Source of the DNA: Nitrosomonadales bacterium
GTDB lineage: Bacteria; Pseudomonadota; Gammaproteobacteria; Burkholderiales; SG8-41
Assembly (NCBI GenBank): GCA_009885185.1
Contig: VFLF01000908.1
Span: 1 to 6,095, forward strand
Direction: 5' to 3'
DNA: 6,095 nt
Part shown: piece by piece, positions 217-5,376 of the stretch
Layout of the letters: the number at the start of each line of letters is the position of its first letter
Numbering within the stretch: position 1 is the first letter of the stretch
Made by a program: the position numbers and the translations under genes
Notes under the pieces: model-generated
Seen by the model: the letters and a program-made list of their open reading frames with translations, nothing else
Told to the model about the DNA's origin: nothing
Database searches by the model: none

Positions 217-245
217 CCGTCATTCTGGCGAAAGCCAGAATCCAG
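217..245 (+). repeat. 29-bp dRS3-like repeat, copy 1
   Basis: Left arm of the 111-bp unit, reading from CCGTC outside to CCAG inside. It has an 8-bp stem (ATTCTGGC/GCCAGAAT) around a GAAA loop. It is an exact reverse complement of 299-327, and matches 4260-4288 except for two loop bases. Confidence 0.9.
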
Positions 246-298
246 ATCGTAGCGTGATGCGCAGCATCTGAATGAGATCCTTCGGATCGGATTACACA

Positions 299-327
299 CT
301 GGATTCTGGCTTTCGCCAGAATGACGG
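299..327 (-). repeat. 29-bp dRS3-like repeat, copy 2
   Basis: Right arm of the 111-bp unit, an exact inverse of copy 1. It is identical over all 29 bp to the copy at 4594-4622, although the bases on both sides differ. This fixes the repeat boundaries independently of the pairing. Confidence 0.9.
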
Positions 328-1407: not shown

Positions 1408-1460
1408 CGATCCTTCGGATCGGGTTTACGAACTGGATTCCGGCTTTCGCCGGAATGACG
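1408..1460 (-). repeat. Half repeat unit: palindrome plus dRS3-like copy 3
   Basis: A CGATCC-TTC-GGATCG palindrome (1408-1422) is followed 10 bp later by a 28-bp repeat copy (1433-1460), in the same order and almost the same spacing as the right half of the 111-bp unit (276-327). The stem here is ATTCCGGC/GCCGGAAT (1437-1456), so one base pair of the other copies, T-A, is replaced by C-G on both sides. The first base after GACG also differs from the other copies. No left arm is visible between here and the receptor start at 1386, so this looks like a truncated unit. It sits in the gap between the cupin gene and the receptor gene and would lie in the transcript of both if they form an operon. 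Confidence 0.8.
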
Positions 1461-1515
1461 AGTGTGAAGGGTGTTCTGTTGTAAGTTCCCGTCAGCGTGA
1501 AACACTACGCCCAGT

Positions 1516-3317: not shown

Positions 3318-4250
3318 ATGCAAAAAATACAGACCTTCGTGTTAATGCTTGCCGTGCTGTTACTGGCCGGATGCGCCGCAACGCCATCCGGCGGCGGCAT
3401 GTCCAGCATCATCGCGCCGGACGCCAAAGTGCAGTTGGTGCAGGAAGGATACATTTTCACCGAAGGGCCGTTGGGTATGCCCGACGGCGGTTTGCTTTTC
3501 ACCGATTTGCGCACAGCCAACCGCATTTATCGCATGGACCCGCACGGAAAAATTTCCGTGTACCGCGAAAAAACCAACACCACCAATGGCATCGCGTACA
3601 CGCCCAAGGGCGAGCTGATCGGCGCGGAGTCCGGCGGCCCGCGCATTGTGCGCATTGCCGCGAACGGTGATTTTAGCGAACTCACGCGCGGCACCGGCAA
3701 GACGCCGATGATGTCGCCCAATGATCTGATCGCCGATTCGAAGGGCGGCGTTTACTTCACCGATCCCGGCCCGCGCCCGATACCCAAGGACCGCAAGCAC
3801 CACGTGTATTACCTGCCGCCGGGCGCATCGCAGGCGATCATCGTGGACGACACGATGACGCGCCCCAACGGCTTGACGCTCACGCTTGACGGCAGAACGC
3901 TGATCGTCGCCGACACCGTGGATGCGGAGTTGTATGCATGGGACGTGCAGCCCGACGGCACGCTGCGCAACCGCCGCGTGTTCATGCGCCTGCGTGACAT
4001 ACCCGCCGGTACCGACAGTGGCGGCGACGGCATGGCGATTGATGCCGAAGGGCGTTTTTATGTGACCGCGCTGACCGGCGTGCAGGTGTTCGACAAGAAC
4101 GGCCAGTATCTCGGCACTATCACCGTGCCGAAAAAGCCTACCAATGTTGCGTTTTCGGGGCCGCGCAAAAGCGTGCTGTACATCACCGCGCAGGAAGGGC
4201 TGTATCGGATTCAGACGCTGACGCAGGGGCCGGCAAGGTTGGGGAAATAA
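3318..4250 (+). CDS. SMP-30/gluconolactonase-like beta-propeller lipoprotein
   Basis: This is a 310-residue protein with a lipoprotein signal peptide: M-Q-K-I, a hydrophobic run, then the lipobox L-A-G-C with the lipidated cysteine at position 19. It is therefore membrane-anchored outside the cytoplasm. The rest is an SMP-30/LRE-type six-bladed propeller. The metal-binding set of that family is present: E49 in T-E-G-P, N135 in S-P-N-D-L, N184 in R-P-N-G-L and D237 in G-D-G-M-A-I-D, so a divalent-metal hydrolase acting on a lactone or ester is plausible. AGGGAG (3306-3311) overlaps the stop of the preceding gene and lies 6 nt before the ATG; the 10-bp gap indicates translation from a shared mRNA. 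The substrate is not known. The pairing of an apparently cytosolic propeller with an exported one suggests related substrates on either side of the membrane, which is inference. Confidence 0.9.
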   Translation: MQKIQTFVLMLAVLLLAGCAATPSGGGMSSIIAPDAKVQLVQEGYIFTEGPLGMPDGGLLFTDLRTANRIYRMDPHGKISVYREKTNTTNGIAYTPKGELIGAESGGPRIVRIAANGDFSELTRGTGKTPMMSPNDLIADSKGGVYFTDPGPRPIPKDRKHHVYYLPPGASQAIIVDDTMTRPNGLTLTLDGRTLIVADTVDAELYAWDVQPDGTLRNRRVFMRLRDIPAGTDSGGDGMAIDAEGRFYVTALTGVQVFDKNGQYLGTITVPKKPTNVAFSGPRKSVLYITAQEGLYRIQTLTQGPARLGK

Positions 4251-4259
4251 GTTACACAC

Positions 4260-4288
4260 CCGTCATTCTGGCGCACGCCAGAATCCAG
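4260..4288 (+). repeat. 29-bp dRS3-like repeat, copy 4 (left arm of nuclease cassette)
   Basis: The stem ATTCTGGC/GCCAGAAT (4265-4284) is unchanged but the loop is GCAC where copies 1, 2 and 5 have GAAA/TTTC. It begins 9 bp after the SMP-30 gene stop and ends 5 bp before the nuclease ATG, so the hairpin occupies the place where a ribosome site would be. Confidence 0.88.
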
Positions 4289-4293
4289 CGGCA

Positions 4294-4578
4294 ATGCAAC
4301 CGTGCGTATATATCCTGGCAAGCAAGCGAAACAGGACTCTCTACATCGGCGTCACTTCCGATGTCGTGAAACGCGTGTGGGAGCACAAGAACGATTTTGT
4401 CGAGGGCTTCACCAAACGTTACGGTGTGCTTACGCTGGTGTGGTACGAGGGTCACGAAACCATGGAGTCCGCGATAGTGAGGGAGAAGGCGCTCAAAAGC
4501 TGGAAGCGTGCGTGGAAGCTGGAGTTGATCGAAGCGTCGAATCCAAAATGGAATGACCGATACGAGAAGGCGGTTTGA
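4294..4578 (+). CDS. Small GIY-YIG nuclease
   Basis: This 94-residue, single-domain protein is the normal length for the small bacterial GIY-YIG family and appears intact. The signature is V-Y-I (5-7) and L-Y-I-G (16-19) followed by V-T-S-D-V-V-K-R-V-W-E-H-K, giving the catalytic arginine R27 and the conserved H31. The metal-binding glutamate is E64 in A-I-V-R-E-K-A-L-K-S-W, and the ending has N-P-x-W-N-D (83-88). GIY-YIG enzymes cut DNA through one metal ion; small stand-alone members include, as recalled, single-strand-specific nucleases that recognise dRS3-like repeats. There is no signal peptide and no extra DNA-binding domain, so target choice must lie in the domain itself. The ATG has no Shine-Dalgarno sequence; 5 bp upstream is the end of a repeat hairpin. 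It may be read from the upstream propeller operon, whose stop is 43 bp away. Target and host role are inferred. Confidence 0.93.
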   Translation: MQPCVYILASKRNRTLYIGVTSDVVKRVWEHKNDFVEGFTKRYGVLTLVWYEGHETMESAIVREKALKSWKRAWKLELIEASNPKWNDRYEKAV

Positions 4579-4593
4579 GTAGTGAGGAACGAA

Positions 4594-4622
4594 CTGGATT
4601 CTGGCTTTCGCCAGAATGACGG
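4594..4622 (-). repeat. 29-bp dRS3-like repeat, copy 5 (right arm of nuclease cassette)
   Basis: Identical to copy 2 (299-327) over 29 bp, with the stem at 4598-4617. It begins 15 bp after the nuclease stop. The five bases before it (ACGAA) are shared with the half unit at 1408-1460, where they also precede CTGGATTC. It could work as a terminator for the nuclease gene. Confidence 0.9.
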
Positions 4623-4656
4623 CGGAGGGGAATTCTCAATCGCGTAGTAACCGTAG

Positions 4657-4673
4657 GATGGGTGCAACCCATC
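4657..4673. terminator. Hairpin at the 3' end of the ModA-like gene, possible terminator
   Basis: GATGGGT-GCA-ACCCATC is a perfect 7-bp stem with a 3-nt loop. It overlaps the last two bases of the minus-strand stop codon (4672-4674). No T-rich run follows on either strand, so it is not a classic intrinsic terminator. The surrounding G-T-A-G-G-A-T-G-G-G-T text resembles another dispersed proteobacterial intergenic repeat, which is from general memory and unchecked. It is distinct from the 29-bp repeat. Confidence 0.4.
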
Positions 4674-5376
4674 ACAAAACCCGTGACACCGATTTCAGTT
4701 GCGTAAGCCCAGCCTTGATGTATGTCGCCGCATGCTCCGGTCGCGCAAAATACTGTAACAACGCACGCGCCGCATCCTGATTTTTTGATTCCGCAAAAAT
4801 CGCCGCTTTCGAATCAAAGTTATATTGAATTTCATCGGGAATCGGCCCCACCACGTCGATGCCCGGCACGGCGAGCAACTCGCAGATTTGCTGAAACGCC
4901 ATTTCCGCCTCGCCGGCGGTGACCACCACGCCGATGTAGCCGCCGGGGCGCGTCACGGTTTTGGGTTTGATCTGTTCAGCGATGCCGAGGCGCTCGATCA
5001 AGCCGGGAAAATAAGCGCCGCTGGGCCCATGCACAGTGTGCGCTATCGACTCGGCGTTGAGCAGCGTGCGTTTGAAGGCGTCGACCGTGCTGATGTCGGG
5101 CTTGGGCGCGCCTTGCAGTACGCCGATGCCGATGGTCGAACGTGAAAAAGGCTGGCGGTTGTCCGCGATCAGCACGCCCATGCCCGCGAGTTCATCAATG
5201 GATTTATCGAGCAGCACGGCTACATCGCCACGCTCGCCGGCCTTGATGCGCGCCAGCGAGTTTTTCGCGGTGTCGAGTATCAACTCGACTTGATGGCCGC
5301 TCTCGCGTTCAAAGCCGGGCAATAGTTTGTCCAGCACGGGGCGCGTGCTGTTGGAGGTGCGTAGCGTAATGTTCAT
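4672..5376 (-). CDS. ModA-like substrate-binding-domain protein without signal peptide
   Basis: This 234-residue protein has the type 2 periplasmic-binding fold pattern of molybdate-binding (ModA-like) proteins. It opens with a strand and a ligand-loop motif L-R-T-S-N-S-T-R-P-V-L (5-15), then F-E-R-E-S-G-H-Q-V (22-30), G-D-V-A-V-L (50-55), the hinge-like segment R-S-T-I-G-I-G-V (79-86), H-G-P-S-G-A-Y-F (116-123) and G-E-A-E-M-A-F-Q-Q (155-163). ModA proteins normally carry a signal peptide; this one starts directly at the first strand, and an in-frame TAA 21 nt upstream of the ATG rules out an N-terminal extension. It is therefore probably cytoplasmic, perhaps a ligand-sensing or scavenging relative. 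No ModB/ModC genes are seen, and no clear Shine-Dalgarno sequence precedes the ATG. It is divergent from the Bug receptor at 5446. The ligand is unknown. Confidence 0.85.
   Translation of the reverse strand: MNITLRTSNSTRPVLDKLLPGFERESGHQVELILDTAKNSLARIKAGERGDVAVLLDKSIDELAGMGVLIADNRQPFSRSTIGIGVLQGAPKPDISTVDAFKRTLLNAESIAHTVHGPSGAYFPGLIERLGIAEQIKPKTVTRPGGYIGVVVTAGEAEMAFQQICELLAVPGIDVVGPIPDEIQYNFDSKAAIFAESKNQDAARALLQYFARPEHAATYIKAGLTQLKSVSRVL

Follow-up and report, generated by a model that had tools for sequence, protein, structure and literature searches.

A 363-bp unit in contig VFLF01000908.1 of a Nitrosomonadales bacterium, all 6,095 bp of which were analysed (hereafter the window), is probably the autonomous form in a family of very small mobile elements, with a nuclease that would act on its own type of REP. 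It is best read as a REPtron-like element in which a GIY-YIG nuclease of the Ssn type replaces the RAYT transposase, cleavage and the mode of movement being inferred. Sequence evidence supports that the gene, the outward-pointing REP pair around it and gene-less derivatives at differing sites form one unit. This evidence comprises the architecture and orientation of the parts, type-specific co-occurrence of nuclease and REP, presence and absence at orthologous sites, dispersed copies, and deletion derivatives.

According to the available part of a 2013 survey (Di Nocera et al. 2013, PMC3733652), REPs of the CGTC-1 family, of which neisserial dRS3 is a member, consist of a CGTC tag, an 8-bp stem starting with AT, a 4-nt loop and a CCA tail. 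The same part reports CGTC REPs from five phyla, mainly as head-to-head dimers and apparently without a dedicated transposase. GTAG-tagged REPs are described there as tied to RAYTs, and RAYT genes flanked by GTAG REPs as REPtrons. As far as that part of the survey goes, CGTC REPs were an abundant family thought to lack a moving enzyme, and they would now gain a candidate partner. The candidate mobile unit is very small, a 94-codon gene between two hairpins; it has gene-less derivatives, and enzyme and repeat types change together.

Architecture of the unit

The features of the window are listed in Table 1. The two arms are reverse-complementary at 27 of 29 positions, and the ORF is separated from the left arm by 5 bp and from the right arm by 15 bp. 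In 300 dinucleotide shuffles of the window, the best match to the reverse complement of the left arm was 20/29, and a chance origin was rejected on this ground. Each arm folds into an 8-bp stem with a 4-nt loop (folding z -4.1 and -6.1) and is laid out as CGTC, ATTCTGGC, loop, GCCAGAAT, CCA. Further copies lie at 217-245 and 299-327, as an inverted pair enclosing no gene, and at 1433-1461, giving five REPs in the window and one head-to-head pair besides the cassette.

The arms and their copies have the CGTC (or TGTC) tag, the AT-stem, the loop and the CCA tail of CGTC-1 REPs. The repeat is dispersed, multi-copy and mostly arranged as head-to-head dimers; a single genome among the relatives can contain as many as 408 copies. 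A preliminary description made from the window had reported an apparently complete GIY-YIG gene between 29-bp inverted repeats with the above gaps, and coordinates, arm comparison and Pfam match agree with it. Its likening of the ATTC...GAAT hairpin to dRS3 was borne out by the fit of the arms to CGTC-1 and by a gonococcal homologue among CGTC-1 repeats (see below). The arm boundaries are somewhat less sharp than it described: in 11 gene-less dimers (the one in the window and ten of genome G004), similarity extends ~7-10 bp beyond the CGTC tag. Scans of positions 4150-4700 revealed neither a sigma-70 promoter nor a terminator, and an Rfam scan gave 0 matches at the gathering threshold.

Table 1. 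Features of the window discussed in the text
Feature	Position	Strand	Basis or remark
Whole unit: left REP, nuclease gene and right REP, 363 bp	4260..4622	+	Inverted arms 27/29; orthologous-site comparison
Left CGTC-1 REP, tag outward	4260..4288	+	CGTC 4261-4264; 8-bp stem/4-nt loop 4265-4284; tail CCA(G)
GIY-YIG nuclease, 94 aa	4294..4578	+	Pfam PF01541, conserved residues, structure model
Right CGTC-1 REP, inverted, tag outward	4594..4622	-	Repeat comparison, fold
Gene-less head-to-head REP dimer, outward geometry like the cassette	217..327	.	Two internal hairpins; resembles ~110-bp dimers of G004
Half of a dimer of this kind (right side), with an internal hairpin and REP 1433-1461	1409..1461	-	Probably 5'-truncated; side-by-side sequences
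Left neighbour, SMP-30/gluconolactonase-like (SGL)	3318..4250	+	PF08450, E 8.4e-42
Right neighbour, solute-binding protein SBP_bac_11	4672..5376	-	PF13531, E 1.4e-32; anchor for orthologous-site comparison

The nuclease

The window ORF matched the Pfam GIY-YIG family with an E value of 2.8e-16 (60 bits; cut-off 22.6). In a 50-row alignment, Y17, G19, E64 and N83 were invariant and Y6, R27 and H31 were at least 90% conserved. The window protein has all of these residues, which we take to be the catalytic residues of the GIY-YIG superfamily. An AlphaFold2 model had a mean pLDDT of 94.7. The closest solved fold found by Foldseek was UPF0213 protein BH0048 (PDB 1zg2; E 9.6e-4), which differs in sequence (26% identity to the window nuclease over the alignment), followed by Slx1 and UvrC N-domain entries with E above 0.001. 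A sequence search of solved structures also had 1zg2 as its best match (E 0.052). NCBIfam gave matches only far below the family cut-offs, and PADLOC gave partial matches only.

The homologue in N. gonorrhoeae (locus L160) is 65.9% identical to the window nuclease and lies amid CGTC-1 (dRS3-type) repeats. By its GIY-YIG domain with intact conserved residues and its closeness to the Neisseria homologue, the window enzyme belongs, on sequence grounds, near the neisserial Ssn nuclease. The Ssn family is said to have been described in 2025 as GIY-YIG site-specific single-strand nucleases, defined by cleavage at a cognate repeat in single-stranded DNA and not in double-stranded DNA. Ssn/NTS work in Neisseria reportedly found that single strands are cut at this repeat and that transformation is affected. 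If the present reading is right, this nuclease family would be linked to mobile elements, in a system that parallels RAYT/REPIN but is independent of it.

REPs flank the gene in homologous loci

Homologue loci were taken from a contig search (49), from 232 genomes of one class (30 loci; 54 genomes with a match) and from 74 genomes of the closest family (30 loci; 27 genomes with a match), together with 20 stretches around multi-copy genomes. After matches with fewer than 70 aligned residues were dropped, 118 of 130 matches were unique, and 116 of these had 150 bp on each side; the named loci L160-L167 were left out of this count. A REP was present within 150 bp of the nuclease gene on at least one side in 81/116 cases, on both sides in 48/116, and on both sides with the tag outward in 40/116. 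Among 1,098 random intervals drawn from these loci at a distance of 700 bp or more, the corresponding numbers were 35 (one side), 2 (both) and 0 (both outward). The odds ratio for a nearby REP, nuclease genes against these intervals, was about 70. The nearest upstream REP pointed its tag outward in 56 of 60 cases (4 inward), and the nearest downstream REP in 54 of 69 (15 inward). Homologous genes are thus usually repeat-flanked, a point on which the preliminary description had staked its proposal that the nuclease recognises its own repeat.

REPs might instead be terminators or mRNA-end hairpins beside many small genes, which would make their pairing with the nuclease ordinary. We consider this very improbable. 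REPs do lie mostly downstream of coding regions, according to the available part of the survey (PMC3733652), and a REP was near 35 of the 1,098 random intervals. Against this stand the above odds ratio and the count of outward pairs (40/116 vs 0/1,098), for which the controls were random intervals and not other small genes, and a deletion derivative, described below, that retains both ends.

Flanking by REPs weakens with distance from the window protein. Outward REPs on both sides were found in 6/13 homologues at 75-100% identity, 20/43 at 65-75%, 13/42 at 55-65%, and 1/18 at 40-55%. No REP was found within 150 bp of 35/116 homologues at the scan thresholds; because the scan was strict, this absence may partly be a threshold effect. 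Among L160-L167, a simple outward REP pair was present only in L167 (by scan) and L165 (by eye). The REPs near L160, L161, L164 and L166 form dimers or clusters and the nearest is often inward; in L160 the nearest REP on either side points inward, within repeat clusters. L162 and L163 have REPs only from ~200 bp downstream of the nuclease. The Rhizobiaceae homologues L161-L164 are accompanied by CCTC-tagged repeats with a longer stem, which resemble another CGTC family. Of two close Rhizobium plasmids (L162 and L206), one has an additional head-to-head REP dimer downstream of the nuclease that is near-identical to the dimer present in both.

REP number and type follow the nuclease

REPs were counted with one CGTC-1 pattern, the reversed control of which gave one match in 48 genomes. 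At least 4 REPs were present in 28/54 genomes with a nuclease match and in 18/178 without (232 genomes, one class), and in 19/22 genomes of this sample when nuclease matches were limited to E <= 1e-35. In the closest family (74 genomes), the median was 48 REPs in 27 genomes with the nuclease and 2 in 47 without (p 1.6e-10). Genomes G288-G308, which at a guess from neighbouring-gene matches are one lineage, had 15-33 REPs in 5 carriers and 0-25 in 16 non-carriers (p 0.003). These and the following p-values overstate independence because the species are related, and many of the genomes are MAGs. REP-rich genomes without a nuclease match occur, with at least 10 REPs in 10/178 genomes of the class sample. 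The preliminary description would have given up its proposal had the repeat been equally abundant without the nuclease; the medians show it to be much rarer there, and the proposal, which overall is partly supported, survived this check as well.

The type of REP was compared with the type of nuclease. Flanking stem and nuclease sequence were correlated among the 68 stop-free nucleases having an outward flanking REP (Mantel r 0.34; 1/2,000 permutations as high). In a tree of 111 nucleases, from which sequences containing stops or shorter than 75 aa were dropped, clade B comprised 11 nucleases (support 96/94), seven of them with an outward flanking REP. All seven had a TGTC tag on the first-listed arm; five had the stem ATTCCCGC and two had variant stems. 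One second arm in this clade reads GGTC, and T tags and CCCGC stems were also found next to nucleases that do not belong to it.

At least 5 B-type REPs were present in 10/11 genomes with a clade B nuclease versus 7/63 without, and at least 5 A-type REPs in 15/18 genomes with an A-type nuclease versus 9/56 without, in a count whose REP patterns and sets were picked after the flanks had been seen, with relatedness left uncorrected. The nuclease of G313 belongs to neither type and was entered as 'neither'. Cross-associations between A and B were weaker (p 0.16 and 0.02). Exceptions were three B-only genomes with 11-19 A-type REPs, and G284, with 34 B-type REPs and no B-clade nuclease found. The sequence comparison suggests that nuclease type tracks REP type, with two types of each.

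These results bear on the possibility that an unrelated transposase, such as a RAYT or an IS enzyme, moves the REPs and that the enclosed nuclease gene is carried along. GTAG-tagged REPs are indeed linked to RAYTs in the available part of the survey (PMC3733652), and three truncated units in the genome G073, described below, look transposase-carried. However, REP type is tracked by nuclease type, and that part of the survey reports no more than a handful of associations between CGTC elements and other transposases, which it considers fortuitous. In addition, the Y1 transposase (PF01797), found in 43 of the 74 family genomes, showed no link with REP number (medians 8 and 8); a role of the cassette as a passenger of Y1 transposases was rejected on this ground. 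We regard carriage by an unrelated transposase as improbable.

Gene-less dimers and deletion derivatives

The gene-less dimers that go with REPtrons are known as REPINs. Among 99 distinct head-to-head pairs in the collected loci, 31 enclosed a full nuclease gene, 6 a remnant or partial one and 62 none; three of the 6 remnant or partial pairs were over 350 bp, and reversed controls gave 0 matches. The clearest derivative adjoins an intact cassette in L061 (genome G275). This 145-bp head-to-head dimer matches the left 97-98 bp of the cassette (REP and first codons) at 94.9% identity and its right 47 bp (last codons and REP) at 95.7%, and the middle is absent. In another lineage, the 196-bp dimer L233 retained ~29 N-terminal nuclease codons, and the 221-bp dimer L234 retained both N- and C-terminal codons. 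Four further dimers (L226, L227, L228 and L235) had short DNA stretches, including the REP, in common with cassettes and no protein match. Of these, L226-L228 occupy three sites in G284 and are each 159 bp long; they are 82-86% identical to one another, their neighbouring frames differ, and similarity outside the dimer covers only some tens of bp among the matches listed. By sequence, some gene-less REP dimers are thus copies of the gene unit with an internal deletion. As expected of an insertion sequence and its MITEs, a full copy and internally deleted copies share both ends, the full copy being presumably autonomous.

A-type dimers, including that of the window at 217-327, gave no nuclease match. 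Dimers of the window type are ~110 bp long and contain two internal hairpins, the pairing of which is kept through two-sided changes in 10 sequences (L223 was left out of this comparison). Eight of the ten stretches compared were placed three bases too far to the left, with no effect on the internal hairpins. The window dimer and the A-type dimers L216-L225 have degenerate outer flanks in common, with two C's at -7/-6 of the CGTC tag. By eye, the outer REP end GAATGACA could give an ATG-ACA start to the downstream frame in several dimers (L226-L228, L233-L235).

Dispersed copies and filled and empty sites

Three cassettes in genome G130 are closely similar: L080 and L082 are 95.6% identical over 406 bp, L082 and L083 96.1% over 356 bp, and L080 and L083 88.2% over 451 bp. 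The other matches between these loci of ~6 kb were 30-121 bp among the matches listed. G240 has two cassettes with 91.8% identity along 392 bp; additional matches there look like repeats and reach 145 bp at most. Another pair in G130, L081 and L084 (96.6%, 763 bp), was dropped as evidence of mobility because the similarity extends far past the gene. In G073, three 5'-truncated nuclease units at unrelated sites (L091, L092 and L093) are 99.1-99.5% identical over 344-378 bp and bear an extra outer terminal repeat, TAGGGCG...CGCCCTA. From their sequence these units look as if carried by another transposase; owing to the extra outer repeat and the truncated gene, they were rejected as clean evidence of REP-driven movement.

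The orthologous site of the window is occupied in the window, L100 and L001. The two neighbours of the cassette abut without it in L102. The NHL gene directly adjoins the solute-binding gene in L106, L108 and L113, again with no cassette. L103 and L105 have other DNA at this site, and in L104, L107, L109-L112, L114 and L115 the left neighbour differs from that of the window. The neighbours of the locus vary as well: in L001, no SGL gene (window 3318-4250) separates the cassette from the NHL gene. For the dimer downstream of TctC2 in L100, L101 offered no clean empty counterpart.

Two other sites gave similar comparisons. In Azospirillum lipoferum 4B, the sufB-sufC gap is 617 bp long and holds the nuclease, flanked to the left and right by a REP dimer; in three relatives (95-97% identity), the gap is 87-129 bp and the nuclease is absent. 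A sufB-sufC match in Shinella PSBB067 also holds the nuclease between inverted CGTC repeats. In the fnrL-regulator interval of Sphingobium, seven plasmids match the entire cassette region (two examined), and five records among the matches listed have both flanks and no cassette (four examined). Among these four, L171 and L172 have a lone palindrome that bears a CGTC tag at either end (imperfect in L172), L174 has a tagless REP-like palindrome, and L173 has no palindrome by eye. The double-tag palindrome at L171 and L172 could be the remnant of two REPs collapsed via their stems, or an unfilled site. No target-site duplication was seen at the window locus or in Azospirillum, where intergenic divergence kept boundaries from being base-exact. 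Two pattern matches were obtained in IMG/VR, neither a relative, and a phage search had no match at E <= 1e-8; viral carriage was thus not seen in these searches.

The proposal in the preliminary description that the cassette spreads or is exchanged gains support from the dispersed copies, from sites both filled and empty, and from the deletion derivatives. For the empty repeat sites that it envisaged, one direct match came from the double-tag palindromes at 2/4 Sphingobium gene-less sites.

Filled and empty sites could also be produced by transformation. The nuclease could be a modulator of the Ssn type, cutting incoming single-stranded DNA at REPs, with REPs as boundaries of exchange and the flanking pair aiding exchange of the gene, not its transposition. 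The similarity and dRS3 setting of the gonococcal homologue, together with the reported Ssn/NTS work, favour this explanation, which is quite possible though short of likely. On the other hand, dispersed copies within a genome and internally deleted dimers need movement to new sites, beyond what homologous exchange alone provides.

Double-tag palindromes

In 35 REP-rich genomes, we counted 157 palindromes tagged at both ends and 0 with CCA at both ends (a pattern that leaves out CTA tails), versus 2,830 tag-tail copies. Mismatched, hybrid-looking stems were present in 25/75 double-tag palindromes (16 genomes) and 9/54 tag-tail copies (p 0.04), a weak comparison that covers 75 listed of the 157 double-tag palindromes and 54 listed of 91 tag-tail copies from G004 alone. 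Double-tag palindromes were nearly absent from the collected loci (one clear case); the above numbers came from genome-wide counts.

These palindromes raise the idea, which we hold to be rather unlikely, that the GIY-YIG nuclease homes between REP sites as a self-propagating element of a new kind. The uninterrupted target would be a palindrome tagged CGTC at both ends (tag-stem-loop-stem-tag). A cut in its loop would leave two ends, each matching the outer half of one REP in a filled copy, and gap repair would copy in the whole unit, cassette or gene-less dimer, turning one double-tag palindrome into two tag-tail REPs. Stem-to-stem collapse would reverse the filling. If true, homing would account for the 157 versus 0 palindromes, the hybrid stems, the Sphingobium sites and the spread of CGTC dimers free of a transposase. 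However, replication-slippage collapse of head-to-head dimers would yield the same asymmetry between double-tag and double-tail forms, so the double-tag excess alone does not show nuclease action.

Proposed mechanism and comparison with known systems

In the mobile-element reading that we prefer, the ends of the element would be its head-to-head CGTC-1 REP palindromes. The nuclease would recognise the hairpin formed by REPs of its own type, most likely when single-stranded, as is reported for neisserial Ssn, and would cut at this hairpin or next to it. Once both ends, or a REP elsewhere, were cut, host replication, repair or recombination could copy or move the unit. GIY-YIG enzymes are hydrolytic and are not known to perform strand transfer; joining would thus have to fall to host functions. 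Gene-less REP dimers may be maintained by the nuclease acting in trans. REP binding and cutting, movement driven by the cuts and the repair route are what we infer from the sequence patterns described above.

The REPs of the window share with CGTC-1/dRS3 repeats the tag, the 8-bp AT-stem, the 4-nt loop, the CCA tail and the predominance of head-to-head pairs. No dedicated enzyme was named in the available part of the 2013 survey, whereas here a nuclease gene is flanked by, and tracks, CGTC REPs. As in REPtrons, a single enzyme gene lies between inverted REPs, and many gene-less dimers accompany it. The enzyme in REPtrons is an HUH tyrosine transposase and the tag GTAG; in the present unit, by contrast, a GIY-YIG hydrolase is the only gene, with no Y1/HUH transposase gene, and the flanking REPs are tagged CGTC, not GTAG; by both features it is not itself a REPtron. 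Some dimers here are also visibly deleted copies of the gene unit.

The window nuclease resembles the Ssn family in being a small GIY-YIG protein with a close Neisseria homologue within dRS3-type repeats, but the mobile-unit architecture, deletion derivatives and filled and empty sites are not known to be part of the Ssn work. GIY-YIG homing endonucleases of the I-TevI type have a separate DNA-binding domain, reside in a host intron or intein and have one split target. The window nuclease shares with them the catalytic domain superfamily and presence or absence at orthologous sites. Unlike them, it has no host intron or intein and, within 94 residues, no separate DNA-binding domain, and two terminal palindromes take the place of the split single target. 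A literature search of incomplete coverage revealed, among the matches listed, no paper linking GIY-YIG nucleases with CGTC REPs or dRS3. What would be new is the organisation as a mobile unit and the connection of this unit with CGTC REPs; the Ssn family itself has reportedly been described already.

Two observations concern the database records. MAGs labelled 'Bordetella parapertussis' (L002, L004 and L005) share a family with betaproteobacterial MAGs that are close to the window, and the label is probably wrong. The plasmid collection includes three entries as large as chromosomes, NZ_CP119140.1, NZ_CP119142.1 and CP090106.1 (N. gonorrhoeae, 2.2 Mb; S. meliloti, 3.7 Mb).
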